Positions 4,743 through 38,169 of a stretch of DNA of 64,000 nucleotides are shown in pieces (within the stretch, counting starts at the first letter, position 1; the number at the start of each line of letters is the position of its first letter). The stretch is from Clavibacter sepedonicus (GTDB taxonomy: Bacteria > Actinomycetota > Actinomycetes > Actinomycetales > Microbacteriaceae): positions 868,001 through 932,000 of the forward strand of contig NC_010407.1 of the NCBI RefSeq assembly GCF_000069225.1. The letters run 5' to 3'. Below the pieces are notes generated by a model. The model did no database searches. It saw only the letters and a program-made list of their open reading frames with translations, and was not told where the DNA came from. A program made the position numbers and the translations under genes.

Positions 4743-6190
4743 CCGCCGTGGACGACCGCGCGGGCGAGGCGACGACACCGGCCGTGCCCGCCCCCGCCAT
4801 CACCCGCCCGCAGCGCGGCTGGTTCCTCCCGCTGCTGCTCCGCCTGCACTTCCTGGCGGGGATCCTCGTGGGCCCGTTCATCCTCACCGCCGCCCTGAGC
4901 GGCGCGGCCTACGCGCTCGCGCCGACCGCCGAGCAGGTTGTGTACGCCCACGAGCTGCACGCGCCCGCAACGGGATCCACCGTGCCGCTCGCCCAGCAGG
5001 TCGAGGCCGCGGAGGCCGTGGTCGGCGGATCCGGCACGCTCGTCGCCGTGCGCCCAGCACCCGCGCCCGGCGACACGACGCGCGTCATGTTCACGGGCGA
5101 CGGCCTCATCCCGGGCCAGACGCGCGCGATCTTCGTCGACCCGGCCGACGCGTCCATCCGCGGCGACCTGCCCGTCTACGGCACGAGCGGCGCCCTGCCG
5201 CTGCGCACCGCGATCAGCCACTTCCACCGCACGCTCGGCCTCGGCGACCCAGGCCGGATCTACAGCGAGCTCGCCGCGAGCTGGCTCGGCATCGTGACCC
5301 TCGCGGGCCTCGGCCTGTGGATCGCGCGCTGGCGCCGGTCGCCGCGCCGCCGCGACCTCGTGCGGCCGGACGGGAAGGCCACGGGCTACCGACGGATCCT
5401 GTCCTGGCACGCCTCGACGGGCGTCTGGCTGGTCGCGGGCGCACTCTTCCTCTCGGCGACGGGCATCACGTGGTCGCAGTACGGCGGGCAGAACGTCACC
5501 GACCTGCGCGCCGCGCTCAGCTGGCAGACGCCGACGCTCACGACGGCGCTGCCGGGCACAGGAGCGGGAGCCGCGTCGGCGGTGGATCCGCACGCCGGCC
5601 ACCACGCGTCCGCGGCCCCCACGACGACGCCCGCCGTGGATCCCGCGACCTTCGACGAGGTCCTCCGCGTCGCGCAGGGAGTCAACGTGGACACGGGCCT
5701 GGTGGAGATCACGCCGCCGAAGGACGCGAGCACGGCGTGGACCGTGAGCGAGATCCAGCGCAGCTTCCCGACCGAGGTCGACCAGGTGGCCGTCGACGGC
5801 AGCACGCTGCAGGTCGTGGGCCGCACCGACTTCGCCGACTACCCGCTGCCCGCGAAGCTCGCGCGCTGGGGGATCGACACGCACCAGGGATCCATGTTCG
5901 GGCTCCCGAACCAGCTGCTCCTCGCGGCGACCGCGCTCGGCATCGCCGCGATGGTCGTGTTCGGGTACCTGATGTGGTGGAAGCGCCGGCCGGGCGTCGC
6001 GCGCCCCGGCCGTCCCGCCCCGGCGGGCGCGCTGGTGCGGGCGCCGTGGTGGGGGATCGCGGCGGTCGTCGCCGTCGGCGTCGGCGTGGGCCTGTTCCTG
6101 CCGCTCGTCGGGATCCCGCTGGTCGGCTTCGTGCTGCTCGACGCGCTGATCACCGCCGCGCGCGTGCACCGGGCGGGCGCCGCCGCCTGA
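4739..6190 (+). CDS. PepSY-associated transmembrane (PepSY_TM) protein
   Basis: A 483-residue integral membrane protein of the PepSY_TM type found with iron- and copper-handling genes. The first helix is RLHFLAGILVGPFILTAALS (about residues 30-50), followed by a long extracytoplasmic domain. The conserved ISHFHRTLGLG segment precedes the second helix, and WHASTGVWL marks the third. A His-rich insertion (DPHAGHHAS) sits in the second extracytoplasmic domain. At the C-terminus are two more helices around the LMWWKRRPG loop. The ATG overlaps the ycnI stop by four bases, so both are made together. A metal-reductase or transport role is inferred from the family, not shown. Confidence 0.85.
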   Translation: MTAVDDRAGEATTPAVPAPAITRPQRGWFLPLLLRLHFLAGILVGPFILTAALSGAAYALAPTAEQVVYAHELHAPATGSTVPLAQQVEAAEAVVGGSGTLVAVRPAPAPGDTTRVMFTGDGLIPGQTRAIFVDPADASIRGDLPVYGTSGALPLRTAISHFHRTLGLGDPGRIYSELAASWLGIVTLAGLGLWIARWRRSPRRRDLVRPDGKATGYRRILSWHASTGVWLVAGALFLSATGITWSQYGGQNVTDLRAALSWQTPTLTTALPGTGAGAASAVDPHAGHHASAAPTTTPAVDPATFDEVLRVAQGVNVDTGLVEITPPKDASTAWTVSEIQRSFPTEVDQVAVDGSTLQVVGRTDFADYPLPAKLARWGIDTHQGSMFGLPNQLLLAATALGIAAMVVFGYLMWWKRRPGVARPGRPAPAGALVRAPWWGIAAVVAVGVGVGLFLPLVGIPLVGFVLLDALITAARVHRAGAAA

Positions 6191-32677: not shown

Positions 32678-33184
32678 ATGACCACGGAGAGCACGGCACG
32701 CATGCGGGCGCTGCACGACGCGCACGCACCCGCGCTGCAGCGGTACGCGCTGCGGCTGACGGGGGATCCGGCGCTCGCCGAGGACGTCGTGCAGGAGGCG
32801 CTGCTGCGGGCCTGGCGCTCGCCCGCGATCCTCGCGGAGGACGACGAGTCCGCCCGCCGCTGGCTCTTCACCGTGGTGCGCAACCTCGTGATCGACGACC
32901 GGCGCAGCGCCTGGCGCGGCCGCGAGACACCGACGGACACCCTCCCCGAGGATCCCGTCGCCGACGCCTCCGACGCCATCATCGACCGCCTGCTCGTCGC
33001 CGAGGCGCTCGCGTCGCTCTCCGCCGAGCACCGCCGCGCGGTCGTCAGCTGCTACCACCTGGGCCGGTCGGTCGCGGAGACCGCCGAACGCGAGGGCGTC
33101 CCGCCCGGCACTATCAAGTCCCGCCTCCACTACGCGCTCAAGGCGCTCCGGCTCGCCCTGCAGGAACGAGGAGTCACCCGATGA
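32678..33184 (+). CDS. ECF sigma factor (SigL/SigK-like)
   Basis: A 168-residue extracytoplasmic-function sigma factor. Region 2 includes LTGDPALAEDVVQEALLRAW (residues 28-47) and WLFTVVRNLVIDDRR, which contact the -10 element. Region 4 includes LSAEHRRAVVSCYHLGRSVAE then GVPPGTIKSRLHYALKALR, the -35-binding helix-turn-helix. It overlaps the following anti-sigma gene by four bases (ATGA), so the two are made in fixed ratio. Confidence 0.93.
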   Translation: MTTESTARMRALHDAHAPALQRYALRLTGDPALAEDVVQEALLRAWRSPAILAEDDESARRWLFTVVRNLVIDDRRSAWRGRETPTDTLPEDPVADASDAIIDRLLVAEALASLSAEHRRAVVSCYHLGRSVAETAEREGVPPGTIKSRLHYALKALRLALQERGVTR

Positions 33185-33978
33185 ACGACCGCGCCGACGA
33201 CATCCACGAGTGGGATGCCGCATACGTGCTCGGCAGCCTGAGCGCCACCGACCGCGCGCTCTTCGAGGCCCACCTCGAGGGCTGCGACGCGTGCATGCGC
33301 TCCCTCGCCGAGCTCTCCGGCCTGCCCGGCGTGCTGCGCATGCTTCCCGTCGACGAGGCGATCGCGCTCATGGACGAGCCCGAGGCGCCCGCCGTGCCGC
33401 AGCCCGCGCCCGAGCCGCGCGAGCGTCCGTCCGCCGCGGCCGGGCACCGCGTCCCCCGCCGGCGCCGCCGTCCCCTGTCCGCGCCCGCGCGCCTCCCGGT
33501 GTCGCGCCGCACGGGCGGGTGGATCCTCGTGGCCGCCGCCCTCGTGCTCCTCGTCGGCGGCGCGGGCCTCGGCTCCGCGCTCCGCGCCGGCGTGAGCGCG
33601 CCCGTCGCGGATCCCGCCCCGTCCGTCACGTCGCCGTCCGCGGACCCGTCCTCCTCGACCGGCCTCCCGGCCGACGCCGTGAGCATGCGCTCCGAGCTCG
33701 ACGAGGGCGTCACCGCGCAGCTCGCCGTGACGGCCAAGCCGTGGGGCACGCGCTTCGACTGGAGCTGCGCCTACGCGGGCGGCGGCGCGCGCAAGGGCGC
33801 CTACGACCTCGTGGCGATCGCCGACGACGGCACCCGCACGATCGTCGCCACGTGGGGCGCCGGCCAGGCCGAGGCGACCCAGCTCGCGGCCACCTCGAGC
33901 CTCCCCATCGAGCGCATCCGCGAGGTGCAGATCACGCCGTCCGACTCCGACGTGGTGCTGGCGAGCCGGGACCTCTGA
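33181..33978 (+). CDS. Anti-sigma factor with zinc finger (RskA-like)
   Basis: A 265-residue single-pass membrane protein. The cytoplasmic N-terminal anti-sigma domain starts WDAAYVLGSLSATDRALFEA and has the zinc-binding H-x3-C-x2-C motif in HLEGCDACM. A basic proline-rich linker leads to one membrane helix (WILVAAALVLLVGGAGLGSAL, about residues 115-135). The outer domain resembles the RskA C-terminal domain (LAVTAKPWGTRFDWSCAYAG). It should hold the sigma factor inactive until an envelope signal. Confidence 0.88.
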   Translation: MNDRADDIHEWDAAYVLGSLSATDRALFEAHLEGCDACMRSLAELSGLPGVLRMLPVDEAIALMDEPEAPAVPQPAPEPRERPSAAAGHRVPRRRRRPLSAPARLPVSRRTGGWILVAAALVLLVGGAGLGSALRAGVSAPVADPAPSVTSPSADPSSSTGLPADAVSMRSELDEGVTAQLAVTAKPWGTRFDWSCAYAGGGARKGAYDLVAIADDGTRTIVATWGAGQAEATQLAATSSLPIERIREVQITPSDSDVVLASRDL

Positions 33979-33988
33979 GGCGTCCCCT

Positions 33989-34006
33989 GATAGCATTGCT
34001 GGTATC
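33989..34006 (+). promoter_or_regulatory. Imperfect palindrome and promoter of the XRE/NTase pair
   Basis: GATAGCA-TT-GCTGGTATC forms an imperfect inverted repeat around GCATTGC. TAGCAT (33991-33996) is a candidate -10 box. A ribosome site (GAGGAGG) lies between it and the ATG at 34020. The arrangement suggests autorepression by the XRE protein. Confidence 0.4.
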
Positions 34007-34019
34007 GAGGAGGTGCATC

Positions 34020-34595
34020 ATGTCGATCGGTGAACTGGTCCATGCCGCACGACGGAGCCGCGGATACACGCAGCGCCAGTTGAGCGGTCGCTCCGGGGTT
34101 GCGCAGTCGACGCTGTCGGAACTGGAGTCCGGGCGGCGCAGCCCCAGTGCCGAGACCGTCGATCGGCTCCTGCTCGCGACCGGGCATCAGCTCATCTCGA
34201 TCCCGACCCGGCGGCAGACGGCAGCCAGCGCGACGGCGGAGATCGCCTCGCGACTGGCAGAAGGGGACAGGGAGCTCGCCGTCCGCCACTTCATCCAGCT
34301 CGCGGACGACCTGGCTGCTGTCCACCACGAGGTCCGCTTCGCGCTGACCATCGCGGAGCCGGCTCGAACGGGCGAGAAGCGCTGGGACGCGGCTGTCGCA
34401 GGCCTCGTGGAGCACCGGCTCGAGGAGGAGGGCCTCCCTCTCCCCTCCTGGGTCAGCTCGGACGAACGCCGGCTGCGGAGGAGCTGGATCTTCGGAGACG
34501 GCGTCTACGACCTGCCGGTGGACCCGGAGCGCGCGGTCCCGGCGTTCCGGCGTCATGGCGTGCTCCTGGATCCGGCCACCCTGGCGAGCGTCTGA
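34020..34595 (+). CDS. XRE-family regulator, candidate antitoxin
   Basis: A 191-residue protein. The N-terminal Cro/CI helix-turn-helix spans about residues 5-55 (RRSRGYTQRQLSGRSGVAQ then STLSELESGRRSPSAETV). The remaining 130 residues form a helical domain (DRELAVRHFIQLADDLAAVH, then GEKRWDAAVAGLVEHRLEEE) followed by a Trp-rich tail (LPSWVSSDERRLRRSWIFGD). ATG at 34020 follows GAGGAGG with ideal spacing. Its last base is shared with the start of the next gene (TGATG), so the two proteins are co-translated. Base composition is lower in GC than the flanking sigma-factor genes, hinting at transfer. Confidence 0.85.
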   Translation: MSIGELVHAARRSRGYTQRQLSGRSGVAQSTLSELESGRRSPSAETVDRLLLATGHQLISIPTRRQTAASATAEIASRLAEGDRELAVRHFIQLADDLAAVHHEVRFALTIAEPARTGEKRWDAAVAGLVEHRLEEEGLPLPSWVSSDERRLRRSWIFGDGVYDLPVDPERAVPAFRRHGVLLDPATLASV

Positions 34596-35161
34596 TGCAT
34601 GCACTCGACCGGAGCGCGTTGATGGCCGCGCTGTCCGAGCTCATCGCCGCGCTGCGGCTCCGTGGCGTCACCGGGCGCATGCAGATCTTCGGGGGCGCGG
34701 CACTCACGCTGTGCCACTTCGATCGCGGGACGACGGTCGACATCGACGCGCGCCTGAGGTTCGATGGCGACGTGCAGGAGTCCGTCACCCTCATCGCGGA
34801 GAGGCGCGGTTGGGGCTCGGACTGGCTGAACGACGACGGGGCGTTCTTCATCCCGGCGTACGGCCGCGACGTGGAGTGGATCGAGATCTTCGTGGGGGAG
34901 GGCTTGGTGGTCGAGATCGCATCGGCCGAGGCCCTGCTGGCGATGAAGCTTCACGCCGGGCGCCCAGGTCGCGACGGCCGGGACATCTCTCGCCTCATGG
35001 TCATATGCGGGCTCTCGTCCCTGTCCGAGTTGGAGGACCTGCATGAGGCCTACTACCCGGGAGACGACCTGTCGGCGCAGGCGGAGAAGCTCATCCTGAG
35101 GATCCTCGACGTCGGACTCCCTGAGCGCCCCGACACCCCGCCGCCGCCGGTGGTCGGCTGA
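34595..35161 (+). CDS. Nucleotidyltransferase-fold protein (DUF6036/AbiEii-like), candidate toxin
   Basis: A 188-residue protein with a minimal nucleotidyltransferase signature: GGAALTLCHFDRGTTVDIDA (about residues 33-52), where GG and the D-x-D pair are the metal- and nucleotide-binding features. EIASAEALLAMKLHAGRPGR corresponds to the helix that in AbiEii/MenT-like toxins carries the conserved Lys. It starts one base into the stop of the XRE gene. The pairing of a DNA-binding regulator with such an enzyme is the usual organisation of nucleotidyltransferase toxin-antitoxin modules. Assignment to a named toxin family is tentative. Confidence 0.75.
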   Translation: MHALDRSALMAALSELIAALRLRGVTGRMQIFGGAALTLCHFDRGTTVDIDARLRFDGDVQESVTLIAERRGWGSDWLNDDGAFFIPAYGRDVEWIEIFVGEGLVVEIASAEALLAMKLHAGRPGRDGRDISRLMVICGLSSLSELEDLHEAYYPGDDLSAQAEKLILRILDVGLPERPDTPPPPVVG

Positions 35162-35255: not shown

Positions 35256-36623
35256 ATGAGCGACCCGGCAGCGCAGGCCGACGTGCCCGACGTGCCCGCG
35301 ATGAGCGACGCCGACGCGGCCGTGGTCGCCGCCCGCTGGAAGCGCAACGCGACCCTGTTCCTCAGCGGCCAGACCGTCTCGCTGTTCGGCTCGATGCTCG
35401 TCCAGTACGCGGTCATGTGGTACGTCACGTTCGAGACCCGCTCGGGCCTCGCGATCGCGCTCTACGCGGTCTGCGCGTTCCTCCCGCAGGGCATCGTCTC
35501 GATCTTCGGCGGCACGCTCGCCGACCGCATGAACCGCCGCGTGCTCGTGATCGTCTCCGACAGCACCATCGCGATCGTCACGGTCGCGCTCGCCCTGCTG
35601 ATGATGAACGGGGTCACCGACCTCTGGATCATCCTGCTCGCGGTGGCCGTGCGCTCCGTCGGCGCCGGGTTCCAGACGCCCGCGGTGCAGGCGATGATCC
35701 CGCAGATCGTGCCGCCGGAGCAGCTGCTGCGGATCAACGGCATCTTCGGCACCATCCAGTCGGCCATGGCCCTGCTCGCGCCGGCCGCCGCGGGCGCGGT
35801 CTACGCCGCCTACGGCCTCGTGCCGCTCTTCTTCGTCGACGCGATCACGGCCGCCATCGGCATCGCGTTCCTGCTCTCGGTCGCGGTGCCGACGCTCGCG
35901 TCCATCGCCGACAAGACGTCGACGTACCGCGAGGACCTCGTCGAGGGGATCCGCTACATCGGCGGCAACCCGGTCGTCCGCTGGCTGCTGGTTCTCTTCG
36001 CGATCATCTTCCTGCTCACGGTGGCACCGTCGTTCATCACGCCGCTGCTCGTCGCGCGCACCTACGGCACCGAGGTGTGGATGGTGACGGTGCTCGAGAT
36101 CGCCTTCAGCGTCGGCATGCTCGGGGGAGGCGCGCTCGTGTCGACGCTGTTCGCGAAGTCCGACCGCATGACGCTGATCCTCGTGAGCTGCTTCGGCTTC
36201 GCGATCTTCACCGCCGGCCTCGGCCTGAGCCCCAACCTCTGGGTGTTCTACGGCTTCATGTTCGCAATCGGCCTGTTCGTGCCGCTGTTCTCGGCGCCGT
36301 TCATGACGCTCGTGCAAGAGACCGTCGCGCCCGAGATGCACGGCCGCGTCTTCAGCTACGTCGGGATCGTCATGGCGCTCGCGACCCCGATCGGCGCGGT
36401 CGCCTTCGGCCCGCTCGCCGACGTCTTCAGCGTGCAGACGCTGCTGGTCGCGGCGGGGATCATCACGGTCGTCGTGATCACGGTCGCCATCTCCCTGCCG
36501 TCCGGCCGCGCCGCGATCCGGATCGCCCGGGAGAAGAAAGTGGAGGCGGATGCGGTGGAAACTGCGGTTTCCGATGCCTCGCCCACCGTAGAAGACCCTC
36601 CGCGTACGACCCCCGTTGCCTAG
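35256..36623 (+). CDS. MFS transporter, DHA3 (macrolide-efflux-like) type
   Basis: A 455-residue membrane protein with 12 helices after a 30-residue polar N-terminus. The signature loop between helices 2 and 3 reads GGTLADRMNRRVLVIVSD. Further DHA3-type features are GAGFQTPAVQAMIPQIVPPE and VQETVAPEMHGRVFSYVGI. The C-terminal 45 residues are charged and polar. Such carriers export drugs or siderophores; the substrate here is unknown. A strong hairpin lies 100 bases downstream. Confidence 0.9.
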   Translation: MSDPAAQADVPDVPAMSDADAAVVAARWKRNATLFLSGQTVSLFGSMLVQYAVMWYVTFETRSGLAIALYAVCAFLPQGIVSIFGGTLADRMNRRVLVIVSDSTIAIVTVALALLMMNGVTDLWIILLAVAVRSVGAGFQTPAVQAMIPQIVPPEQLLRINGIFGTIQSAMALLAPAAAGAVYAAYGLVPLFFVDAITAAIGIAFLLSVAVPTLASIADKTSTYREDLVEGIRYIGGNPVVRWLLVLFAIIFLLTVAPSFITPLLVARTYGTEVWMVTVLEIAFSVGMLGGGALVSTLFAKSDRMTLILVSCFGFAIFTAGLGLSPNLWVFYGFMFAIGLFVPLFSAPFMTLVQETVAPEMHGRVFSYVGIVMALATPIGAVAFGPLADVFSVQTLLVAAGIITVVVITVAISLPSGRAAIRIAREKKVEADAVETAVSDASPTVEDPPRTTPVA

Positions 36624-36829: not shown

Positions 36830-37720
36830 TCACTGCGTACCGGAGAGCGCGAGGGCATAGGTGTGGGGCTCACGTGCTTCTCCGACTTCGCTCGTCGTGA
36901 CGGCGCCTTCGGTGCCGAACGTGGTGATCTGATCTTCTGTGCGCTCGTCGGCCCTGGTGTCCACGAACAGGTCGTGGCCGATGTTGCGTAGGCCCTCGAC
37001 GGACGCGATATCCGCTTCATGGGCGTCGTCGGTGAGGACGAATTGATGAGTCTGAACGGCACCATCCGCTTCCGGGATGCTGTTCCGGACGGAGATCGCG
37101 CGCTGGGAGAAGCTGCTGTTCGACGCCCGGGCGGATGTGACGTAGTCATTCTCGGAGTCGCCGGTGGTGAACAAGAAGGTATCAGACGCGTTTGACGCCT
37201 TCCACAGCTGCACCCCCTCGAACTGACCGATCGCGACCAAGTCATCCTTCGAGAACCCGGACGCGGAGGCGACATGAGCCAAGGCGCGGTTCGGGACGGC
37301 AGATTCTTCGATGCGGCCCTCGGCGGCTGTGGAATCATTGAGGGCATCACTGCGGATCCGGCCGACATCCAAGGCCGTGGCTCTGGCGTTGAGGCTGGCA
37401 GTCTCCCCGGGCGACTTCCATCTGAACGCACCCTTCCGGTAGTTCCGGGTGTCGTAGATCGTGGCCTGGTAGCTCCACGCGTTCGTGGTGGCTGTGCCGA
37501 GCCAGACCTGTATGTTGGCCAACCCGGTTATCGTCTCCTCGGTGAATCCGGCCGTGATCCCTGTGCGACTCTGGTACACCGTCCCCTCTGTATAGATGAC
37601 GTCAGGAGCTGCGCTGCCGTCGAAGAAAGTCGCGGTCGCTGCATGCGCTGGCGTCGCCACGGTCATCGCCAGTGCGGCAGCGGATAGAAATGATGCTATA
37701 GCAATTCGATTTCGTTTCAT
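36830..37720 (-). CDS. Secreted protein of unknown function, AT-richer than its surroundings
   Basis: A 296-residue exported protein. The start ATG at 37720 was chosen because AAAGGAA lies upstream and the protein then opens with a clean signal peptide (MKRNRIAIASFL, hydrophobic core, cleavage after AHA near residue 27). The mature part has no cysteines and no recognised domain; it is rich in Thr, Ser, Ala and Asn (VYQSRTGITAGFTEETITG, QATIYDTRNYRKGAFRWKS). The 60 bases from 37681 are 42% GC by hand count, far below the genome. It was probably acquired. Confidence 0.75.
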   Translation of the reverse strand: MKRNRIAIASFLSAAALAMTVATPAHAATATFFDGSAAPDVIYTEGTVYQSRTGITAGFTEETITGLANIQVWLGTATTNAWSYQATIYDTRNYRKGAFRWKSPGETASLNARATALDVGRIRSDALNDSTAAEGRIEESAVPNRALAHVASASGFSKDDLVAIGQFEGVQLWKASNASDTFLFTTGDSENDYVTSARASNSSFSQRAISVRNSIPEADGAVQTHQFVLTDDAHEADIASVEGLRNIGHDLFVDTRADERTEDQITTFGTEGAVTTSEVGEAREPHTYALALSGTQ

Positions 37721-37977
37721 CAGATGGTTCCTTTCGTCGGTGTGCCTATGTTGGGAGTCAGTCTCCAAGCTCAACTCGCCGGAACCATTCCACATCCGAA
37801 GCGTGGCAAGGTAATAAATCGAAACACAGTGCCGTGACTGCGTCGCCGCTGGTGGTCAGCGAGAAGATGGCGGCCTGCGGTGCGCGGGCGATATCATCGC
37901 AAGATGAAATACCGAAGCGTCGCGTGCGCGTCATTTCTGTGCATGCGGAATCAGGCAGTGGATTGAGGAGCGATGAC

Positions 37978-38169
37978 ATGATGGGATTCAATGCACGGCT
38001 CACGGCCGCCCTGGCGGAAGCGCAGGCACGACGTCAGCGAGCGGAGAGCGACCGGGCCCCGGACCACAGCAGAGGTGATCGACCGGATGCCTTCGATGGG
38101 CACGCGACCCCGTTGCCGCCGTACGAGAAGGCCGCTCGCAGAAGGCGCTGGTGGCAGAGGCGACTCTGA
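37978..38169 (+). CDS. Small basic protein of unknown function (63 aa)
   Basis: GAGGAG at 37965-37970 is correctly spaced for ATG 37978 or the adjacent ATG 37981. The product (MMGFNARLTAALAEAQARRQ onward) has a short helical N-terminus, a polar middle and an Arg/Trp-rich end (KAARRRRWWQRRL). A longer reading from 37834 lacks a ribosome site. No homologous family was recognised. It sits in the AT-richer stretch next to the secreted orphan. Confidence 0.45.
   Translation: MMGFNARLTAALAEAQARRQRAESDRAPDHSRGDRPDAFDGHATPLPPYEKAARRRRWWQRRL

Follow-up and report, generated by a model that had tools for sequence, protein, structure and literature searches.

What is the role of a gene pair in which a DNA-binding protein of the XRE family is followed by a predicted nucleotidyltransferase (NTase)? 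Combining comparative sequence analysis with structure prediction on a 64,000-nucleotide stretch of Clavibacter sepedonicus (contig NC_010407.1, positions 868,001 to 932,000, hereafter the window), we characterized such a pair, composed of an XRE-family gene (34020..34595, plus strand, 191 aa, from an ATG at 34020 to a TGA ending at 34595) and an NTase gene (34595..35161, plus strand, 188 aa, ATG at 34595), the stop codon of the former sharing one base with the start codon of the latter (TGATG). An earlier note on this DNA had described a helix-turn-helix (HTH) protein with a large extra domain, overlapping an NTase gene by one base, and had suggested a toxin-antitoxin or phage-defence module; both open reading frames (ORFs) and their overlap were confirmed. 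The pair is probably a toxin-antitoxin module, with the NTase as predicted toxin, the C-terminal domain (CTD) of the XRE protein as predicted antitoxin and the HTH domain as predicted autorepressor of the operon, acting at positions 33988-34007. Judged by anatomy and evolution, the best reading is that the pair would work like the NTase toxin-antitoxin systems in the layout called Xre-MNT. The toxin-antitoxin proposal is well supported by computation, through conserved catalytic residues, a predicted fold resembling MenT toxins and ANT enzymes and a constant pairing of the two partners. Further support comes from decay that is one-sided and falls on the NTase, from the palindromes found repeatedly upstream, and from the existence of a fused form and of plasmid-borne copies.

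Active-site conservation and predicted fold of the nucleotidyltransferase

Residue conservation was assessed on 132 pairs including duplicates, reduced to 120 exact-distinct pairs and to 116 at 95% identity. Among the 120 distinct paired NTases, the two glycines of motif I (G33-G34, 34691..34696) were always kept, and motif II (T47-x-D49-x-D51, reading T47-V-D49-I-D51 in the window, 34733..34747) retained T47 in 120/120 and both D49 and D51 in 119/120. Motifs III/IV (K118...R123...D127..D130, 34946..34984, on the plus strand as the preceding ones) retained K118, R123 and D130 in 120/120 and D127 in 118/120. The core that the earlier note had called minimal (GG...DID) is therefore present in its two named elements but is not minimal, since K118...R123...D127...D130 follow. 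The spacing is GG-x14-DID, and the motif II arginine (R44) was kept in just 94/116. T47 lies two residues ahead of the first aspartate, as do MenT1 T39 and MenT3 S78 in the accessible part of a report on these toxins (PMC10435456).

At the family level, the NTase is related to AbiEii and DUF6036 proteins, with matches to DUF6036 (PF19502; E 2.7e-4, 21.2 bits, below the curated cut-off of 23.6) and AbiEii (PF08843; 14.9 bits, below the cut-off of 22.5). Its closest named relatives were Clavibacter proteins. Among relatives, two are labelled 'DUF6036 family nucleotidyltransferase' by NCBI (P0004, P0009), eight carry precomputed PF19502 matches (P0010-P0013, P0015, P0016, P0018, P0026), and some distant ones carry precomputed PF08843 matches (P0022-P0024, P0026, P0029). 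DUF6036 had no mention in the literature searched, a search with subscription papers outside its reach. In a second structural alignment, the AlphaFold model of the NTase (mean pLDDT 94.8) aligned with ANT(2'')-Ia, the best structural row, and with MenT toxins. The structural claim rests on this second alignment because Foldseek returned no match at E <= 0.001 for the model and placed unrelated Hsp70 rows in the same score range. The sequence itself matched nothing in the PDB at E <= 1 and none of the PADLOC protein models at E <= 1.

An uncatalogued domain as predicted antitoxin

The XRE protein comprises an HTH domain (residues 1-60, 34020..34199, plus strand) and the CTD (residues 61-191, 34200..34592, plus strand), a predicted antitoxin domain without catalogued family. 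HTH_3 matched residues 9-54 (E 1.1e-12), and HTH_3, HTH_31 and HTH_19 were the only Pfam families above cut-off, with no AbiEi family listed. The earlier note had found the C-terminal part unfamiliar, and databases agree: no Pfam, NCBIfam or PADLOC family exceeded its cut-off for the CTD, nor for the CTD-only and HTH-less relatives tried. NCBIfam gave two weak matches over the CTD (E 0.022 and 0.11), each well under its cut-off and taken as chance, and the PADLOC matches of the XRE protein were confined to its HTH part. In the AlphaFold model of the whole protein (mean pLDDT 90.8) the CTD is mostly helical; structure searches with this whole model returned HTH folds only, and the lack of a CTD match therefore does not point to a new fold. 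Conservation among the 120 distinct paired loci was strong at W144 (120), P114 (119), R89 (118), D123 (117) and P142 (114); histidine is absent from the CTD positions conserved at >=90%. No description of the CTD was found in the literature searched, and this domain and its modular use appear to be the new part of the system.

Constant pairing across actinobacteria

The pairing is constant well beyond Clavibacter. Scanning genomes with the XRE alignment recovered 101 related loci, 80 of which were kept, and an NTase match was found in 67/80, directly downstream in nearly all. Led by the NTase, searches found the family in 60/249 genomes of a family-level sample (E <= 1e-8) and in 44/296 genomes of a class-level sample (E <= 1e-10), and in 30/30 fetched class-level loci (window locus included) a CTD gene lay 9-109 nt upstream of the NTase. 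The DNA-binding part varies: in 9/30 of these loci the CTD frame spans <=146 codons from stop to stop and therefore leaves no room for an HTH, and elsewhere the CTD is preceded by another kind of HTH or by an extended N-terminus. CTD and NTase distances were correlated (r 0.92 over 116 pairs), a value to which shared genome ancestry alone would contribute some correlation.

Plasmids of Mycolicibacterium sp. TY66 and Mycobacterium kansasii carry a single annotated protein combining an HTH-like start, labelled so by reading only, with the CTD and the NTase (L196 2928-4013 and L197 1931-3007, respectively). The two-gene CTD/NTase form occurs on a conjugative plasmid of Arthrobacter sp. FB24, and NTase relatives were found in 31 plasmid records (E 1e-3), with none for the XRE query at E 1e-12. 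The Pfam DUF6036 model was dropped as a phylum-wide tracer in favour of an alignment of relatives (A3), because at E 1e-5 that model did not recover the window's own gene, and because it led to few CTD loci (2/27 fetched).

Two loci showed additional arrangements. In L125 (1019-2933), an XRE gene matching from residue 35 on is followed by two ORFs lying side by side (364 and 275 aa) that resemble a second regulator/NTase-type pair, and in L086, after position 5555, the start of an NTase remnant continues in the same frame into an unrelated-looking sequence of minimal-nucleotidyltransferase type.

One-sided decay of the nucleotidyltransferase

Decay of the pair was counted on 171 non-redundant sites, obtained by pooling 202 rows (class-level loci together with the XRE-led and NTase-led sets, which share members), removing repeats and scoring the CTD itself. 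A partner was called intact when NTase positions 25-140 or CTD positions 25-115, respectively, lay in one frame, a definition loosened because a few diverged NTases failed the strict one. Both CTD and NTase were complete at 128 sites, and the CTD was complete at 33 others where the NTase was broken (22) or undetected (11). The reverse was seen once, in L235, an open 204-codon frame in which the first CTD positions fail to score; the remaining sites had both partners partial (1), a broken NTase without CTD (2) or neither partner (6). Each group was classed by its first member, which leaves uncounted some of the broken copies that share a group with intact relatives, and one broken NTase (L190) sits at a contig end.

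Strict counts gave the same direction. In the XRE-led set of 95 sites, comprising the 18 Clavibacter sites and 77 non-Clavibacter loci (the 80 kept loci minus three repeats of Clavibacter sites), five were empty, and the other 90 had both genes intact (62), an intact XRE gene but a broken (15) or undetected (6) NTase, or both broken or gone (7), with no reverse case; since the XRE gene served to find these loci, this count may be biased. The NTase-led set (79 rows, representing 78 loci) had both intact in 51 and an intact XRE gene with a broken NTase in 12; the rest had broken NTases, besides seven intact NTases whose partner was only partly covered by the XRE model. These seven partners are complete ORFs with a CTD, six by profile and L169 by partial match and reading. 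The sites share ancestry, many belong to drafts or metagenome-assembled genomes, diverged partners had been added to broaden the CTD profile, and a gene may be sheltered by standing first in its operon; with these caveats, a CTD that outlives its NTase is the decay direction expected if the NTase is a toxin.

The Clavibacter insertion site and its upstream palindrome

In all 18 Clavibacter genomes the site is bounded on the left by an anti-sigma-like gene, a function name suggested by sequence (33181..33978, plus strand, in the window), and on the right by an MFS-type transporter gene, also named from sequence (35256..36623, plus strand), which begins 94 bp downstream of the NTase gene; in L051 the contig starts inside the anti-sigma gene. 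Both flanking genes are outside the module, and neither was found at the 77 non-Clavibacter loci at E 1e-10 in flanks of up to 5 kb. Both module genes were intact in 6/18 genomes (L034, the copy in the window, L035, L036, L037, L042 and L045), the XRE gene was intact with a broken NTase in 2/18 (L043, L048), XRE remnants without NTase remained in 5/18 (L038, L044, L049, L050, L051), and the site was empty, with ~90 bp between the anti-sigma and MFS genes, in 5/18 (L039, L040, L041, L046, L047). L036, L037 and L048 form a second allele group with 56-66% identity to the window proteins. In L038, L044 and L051 the HTH and operator are lost and a CTD-only ORF begins six bases past the anti-sigma stop codon, and L049 (genome G015) represents a third decay stage at the same site, with approximately the first 36 HTH residues and an upstream palindrome-like stretch remaining. 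The CTD-only ORFs had a dN/dS of 0.22-0.25, and closer copies had values of 0.02-0.28 (HTH), 0.09-0.17 (CTD) and 0.13-0.22 (NTase); by these sequence estimates, all parts of the pair, CTD-only ORFs included, are under purifying selection.

The predicted operator (33988..34007) lies 12 bp ahead of the XRE start codon and is an imperfect palindrome, TGATAGC-N6-(degenerate)GCTATCA. Its sequence, TGATAGCATTGCTGGTATCG, matches the genus palindrome TGATAGC-N6-GCTATCA exactly in the left half and departs from it at two positions in the right half, and it is the sole site in the 64 kb with <=2 mismatches to it. The left half GATAGC is common to eight Clavibacter XRE upstream regions, six of which also have the right half GCTATC. 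Other genera have different palindromes, such as AATATGACT...AGTCATATT, from ~45 to 20 bases before the start codon, some of which, as read from the sequences, abut a TATAAT-like hexamer. The palindrome score threshold was reached by 39% of 82 upstream regions, an indicative figure as these belong to related loci, against 2.2% of mononucleotide shuffles. These recurring palindromes fit autorepression by the XRE protein. The earlier note had placed the palindrome at the promoter: the palindrome is real, but neither a sigma-70-type promoter nor a terminator was detected by consensus scan.

The same note had held the locus to be less GC-rich than its neighbours. At 69.8% GC, the pair is indeed below the 2 kb upstream (74.9%) and the whole window (73.2%), but not below the downstream MFS gene (68.6%). 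Further downstream, the window ORF 36830-37795 (minus strand) has a signal-peptide-like stretch in and beside the GC-poorest 500 bases seen within 24-46 kb (57% GC, 37500-37999). In three Clavibacter genomes, a convergent ORF stands beside the CTD-only gene or remnant (L038 4799-5479, L044 4577-5221 and L050 4575-5390, all on the minus strand); its sequence is reminiscent of a GIY-YIG protein, although a Pfam scan covering part of the L038 ORF found nothing.

Comparison with known systems

Available parts of the AbiE description report an antitoxin-then-toxin operon, a two-domain antitoxin with a DNA-binding N-terminus and a CTD, and inverted repeats in the promoter region (PMC3985639). The window pair shares this gene order, this antitoxin architecture and the upstream inverted repeat, and its GG...DID, K118, R123 and D130 agree with the AbiE motif I-IV pattern hG[G/S]..DhD with Arg, Lys/Arg and Asp; it differs by a spacing of 14 instead of 15 and by the inconstancy of its motif II arginine. 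In addition, its antitoxin has an XRE-type HTH and no match to AbiEi (COG5340). Membership in AbiE was thus rejected, as there is no AbiEi partner and the NTase falls under the AbiEii cut-off. AbiE toxin and antitoxin are also non-binding, and the natural CTD-NTase fusion leans against such a non-binding pair here. A survey, in its accessible part, counted AbiE in 48/114 Clavibacter genomes (PMC11856565). AbiEii-family genes (PF08843) occurred separately in 6/18 of our Clavibacter genomes and were absent from the window's genome, so that the window pair is a different gene from the surveyed AbiE.

With MenAT, the pair shares the predicted NTase fold and a Ser/Thr placed two positions ahead of the first catalytic Asp, followed by a Lys and an Asp, as far as the consulted portions of two reports describe (PMC10435456, PMC11375011); the MenT core pattern (S/T-x-D, Lys, Asp) corresponds to T47-x-D49, K118 and D130, kept in 119-120/120, by pattern comparison and not by residue-level superposition. 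It appears to differ by its antitoxin, as far as structure searches of the XRE model, filled by HTH matches, can tell, and its NTase is too distant for a sequence match in the PDB. Xress-MNTss of Streptococcus suis combines an Xre antitoxin and an NTase toxin in an autoregulated operon with promoter palindromes (PMC8406773, accessible part). The window pair resembles it by layout and domains, with an XRE HTH protein and an NTase in one operon and palindromes upstream; toxicity of the S. suis system was reported solely upon export of its toxin to the periplasm, and the same part of that report describes no CTD. The NTase lies just under the DUF6036 cut-off, and most DUF6036 loci elsewhere have no CTD. 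ANT(2'')-Ia has the same fold by model alignment, which shows no function, in a different gene context and with a different paired regulator.

Proposed mechanism and rival explanations

We infer the toxicity of the NTase, its tRNA target and its neutralisation by the CTD from these comparisons. The NTase would arrest growth in the manner of MenT toxins, by attaching nucleotides to the 3' ends of tRNAs, and the CTD would silence it by direct binding, possibly aided by phosphorylation of T47, which is placed like MenT1 T39. The HTH would repress the operon from the palindrome at 33988-34007, and translation of the two genes is likely coupled, because the antitoxin gene comes first and the genes overlap. 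A drop in antitoxin level would free the NTase and lift repression. A module with a decayed NTase would be harmless, which would explain why the XRE partner outlives it.

Several observations weigh against this toxin-antitoxin reading, or stand beside it. No assay data for the CTD/NTase family were found in the literature searched, the promoter consensus is missing, the DUF6036 loci fetched elsewhere in the phylum had a CTD in only 2/27, and neighbouring ORFs are mostly ordinary or metabolic with little defence signal. For this last point, 35 of the 80 loci were chosen, 34 of which gave 123 ORFs; nine were left out (six long, three others) and 114 were scanned. PADLOC returned nine models among them, one ORF each, six of the nine being JetD models, a count made without control set. 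The commonest neighbour class, likewise without control set, was that of sigma-70 family ORFs (5/114 around the 34 loci).

One alternative is a dedicated anti-phage abortive-infection system whose CTD, especially when fused, would be a phage sensor. Fused sensor-toxins such as CapRel resemble the fused CTD-NTase layout. Related NTase modules (AbiE) confer phage resistance, according to the part of that report at hand (PMC3985639), and allele groups at the Clavibacter site are as far apart as 56-66% identity. Nonetheless, no relative was found among 50,697 phage records at E 0.01 and none was confirmed in viral contigs, PADLOC did not match the NTase, and the neighbours are mostly metabolic. 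The phage-defence half of the earlier proposal was hence not borne out, and we regard this alternative as unlikely. A domesticated pair of regulator and enzyme, harmless to the cell and with a housekeeping role in RNA or protein modification, would agree with the purifying selection on all parts; it fits poorly with a presence that is patchy, with recurrent decay of the NTase and with the empty sites and plasmid copies, and we hold it improbable.

NTases that silence a partner are known, for example in HEPN-MNT, and the roles could accordingly be reversed, the CTD protein being a toxin that the NTase silences by nucleotidylation. In the part of a survey that was accessible, MNT-HEPN pairs are tabulated with the MNT as a possible toxin (PMC2701414), and the predicted CTD is mostly helical. 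However, no HEPN family was matched at E <= 1 by the XRE protein, two CTD-only proteins or several HTH-less or diverged partners, unlike in HEPN-MNT, and the well-kept CTD residues include no histidine. Every intact NTase observed had a CTD frame upstream, and a complete CTD stands without intact NTase at 33/171 sites, in addition to the CTD-only ORFs under purifying selection; as a toxin is not expected to outlast the loss of its antidote, we consider reversed roles very improbable. We give still less credence to an ANT/Lnu-like operon for drug modification, made up of the NTase and its regulator and tied to the adjoining MFS pump, despite the rank of ANT(2'')-Ia among structural rows and the proximity of the MFS-type gene. 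This gene is present in 18/18 Clavibacter genomes, with or without the module, and was not found at the 77 loci of other genera, and a functional link of the module to the pump was thus rejected. Moreover, K118...R123...D130 is the AbiEii/MenT pattern, as given in the available parts of two reports (PMC3985639, PMC10435456), and fusion to a regulator would be unexpected for a resistance enzyme.

Implications for nucleotidyltransferase toxins

NTase toxins occur under several unrelated antitoxins, and whether these share one switch is a standing question. Antitoxin-induced auto-phosphorylation has been argued for NTase toxins, in the accessible part of one report (PMC11375011). A bolder extension of the toxin-antitoxin reading, which we hold as tentative and rather doubtful, is that the CTD is an undescribed antitoxin domain defining a separate, actinobacteria-wide class of NTase toxin-antitoxin systems, in which it would be the constant partner while DNA-binding heads are swapped or dropped, plasmid forms would be one self-latched protein, and silencing would proceed via the invariant active-site threonine. 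If this were true, antitoxin-driven phosphorylation would be a rule across unrelated NTase antitoxins and not a mycobacterial peculiarity. The family offers a large independent test set for this question, as it includes a CTD that is constant, natural variants that are fused or have no HTH, orphan antitoxin domains, and a threonine in the phospho-acceptor position in 120/120 distinct members; it would also supply a working name for pairs that are annotated as 'helix-turn-helix protein' and 'DUF6036/hypothetical protein'.
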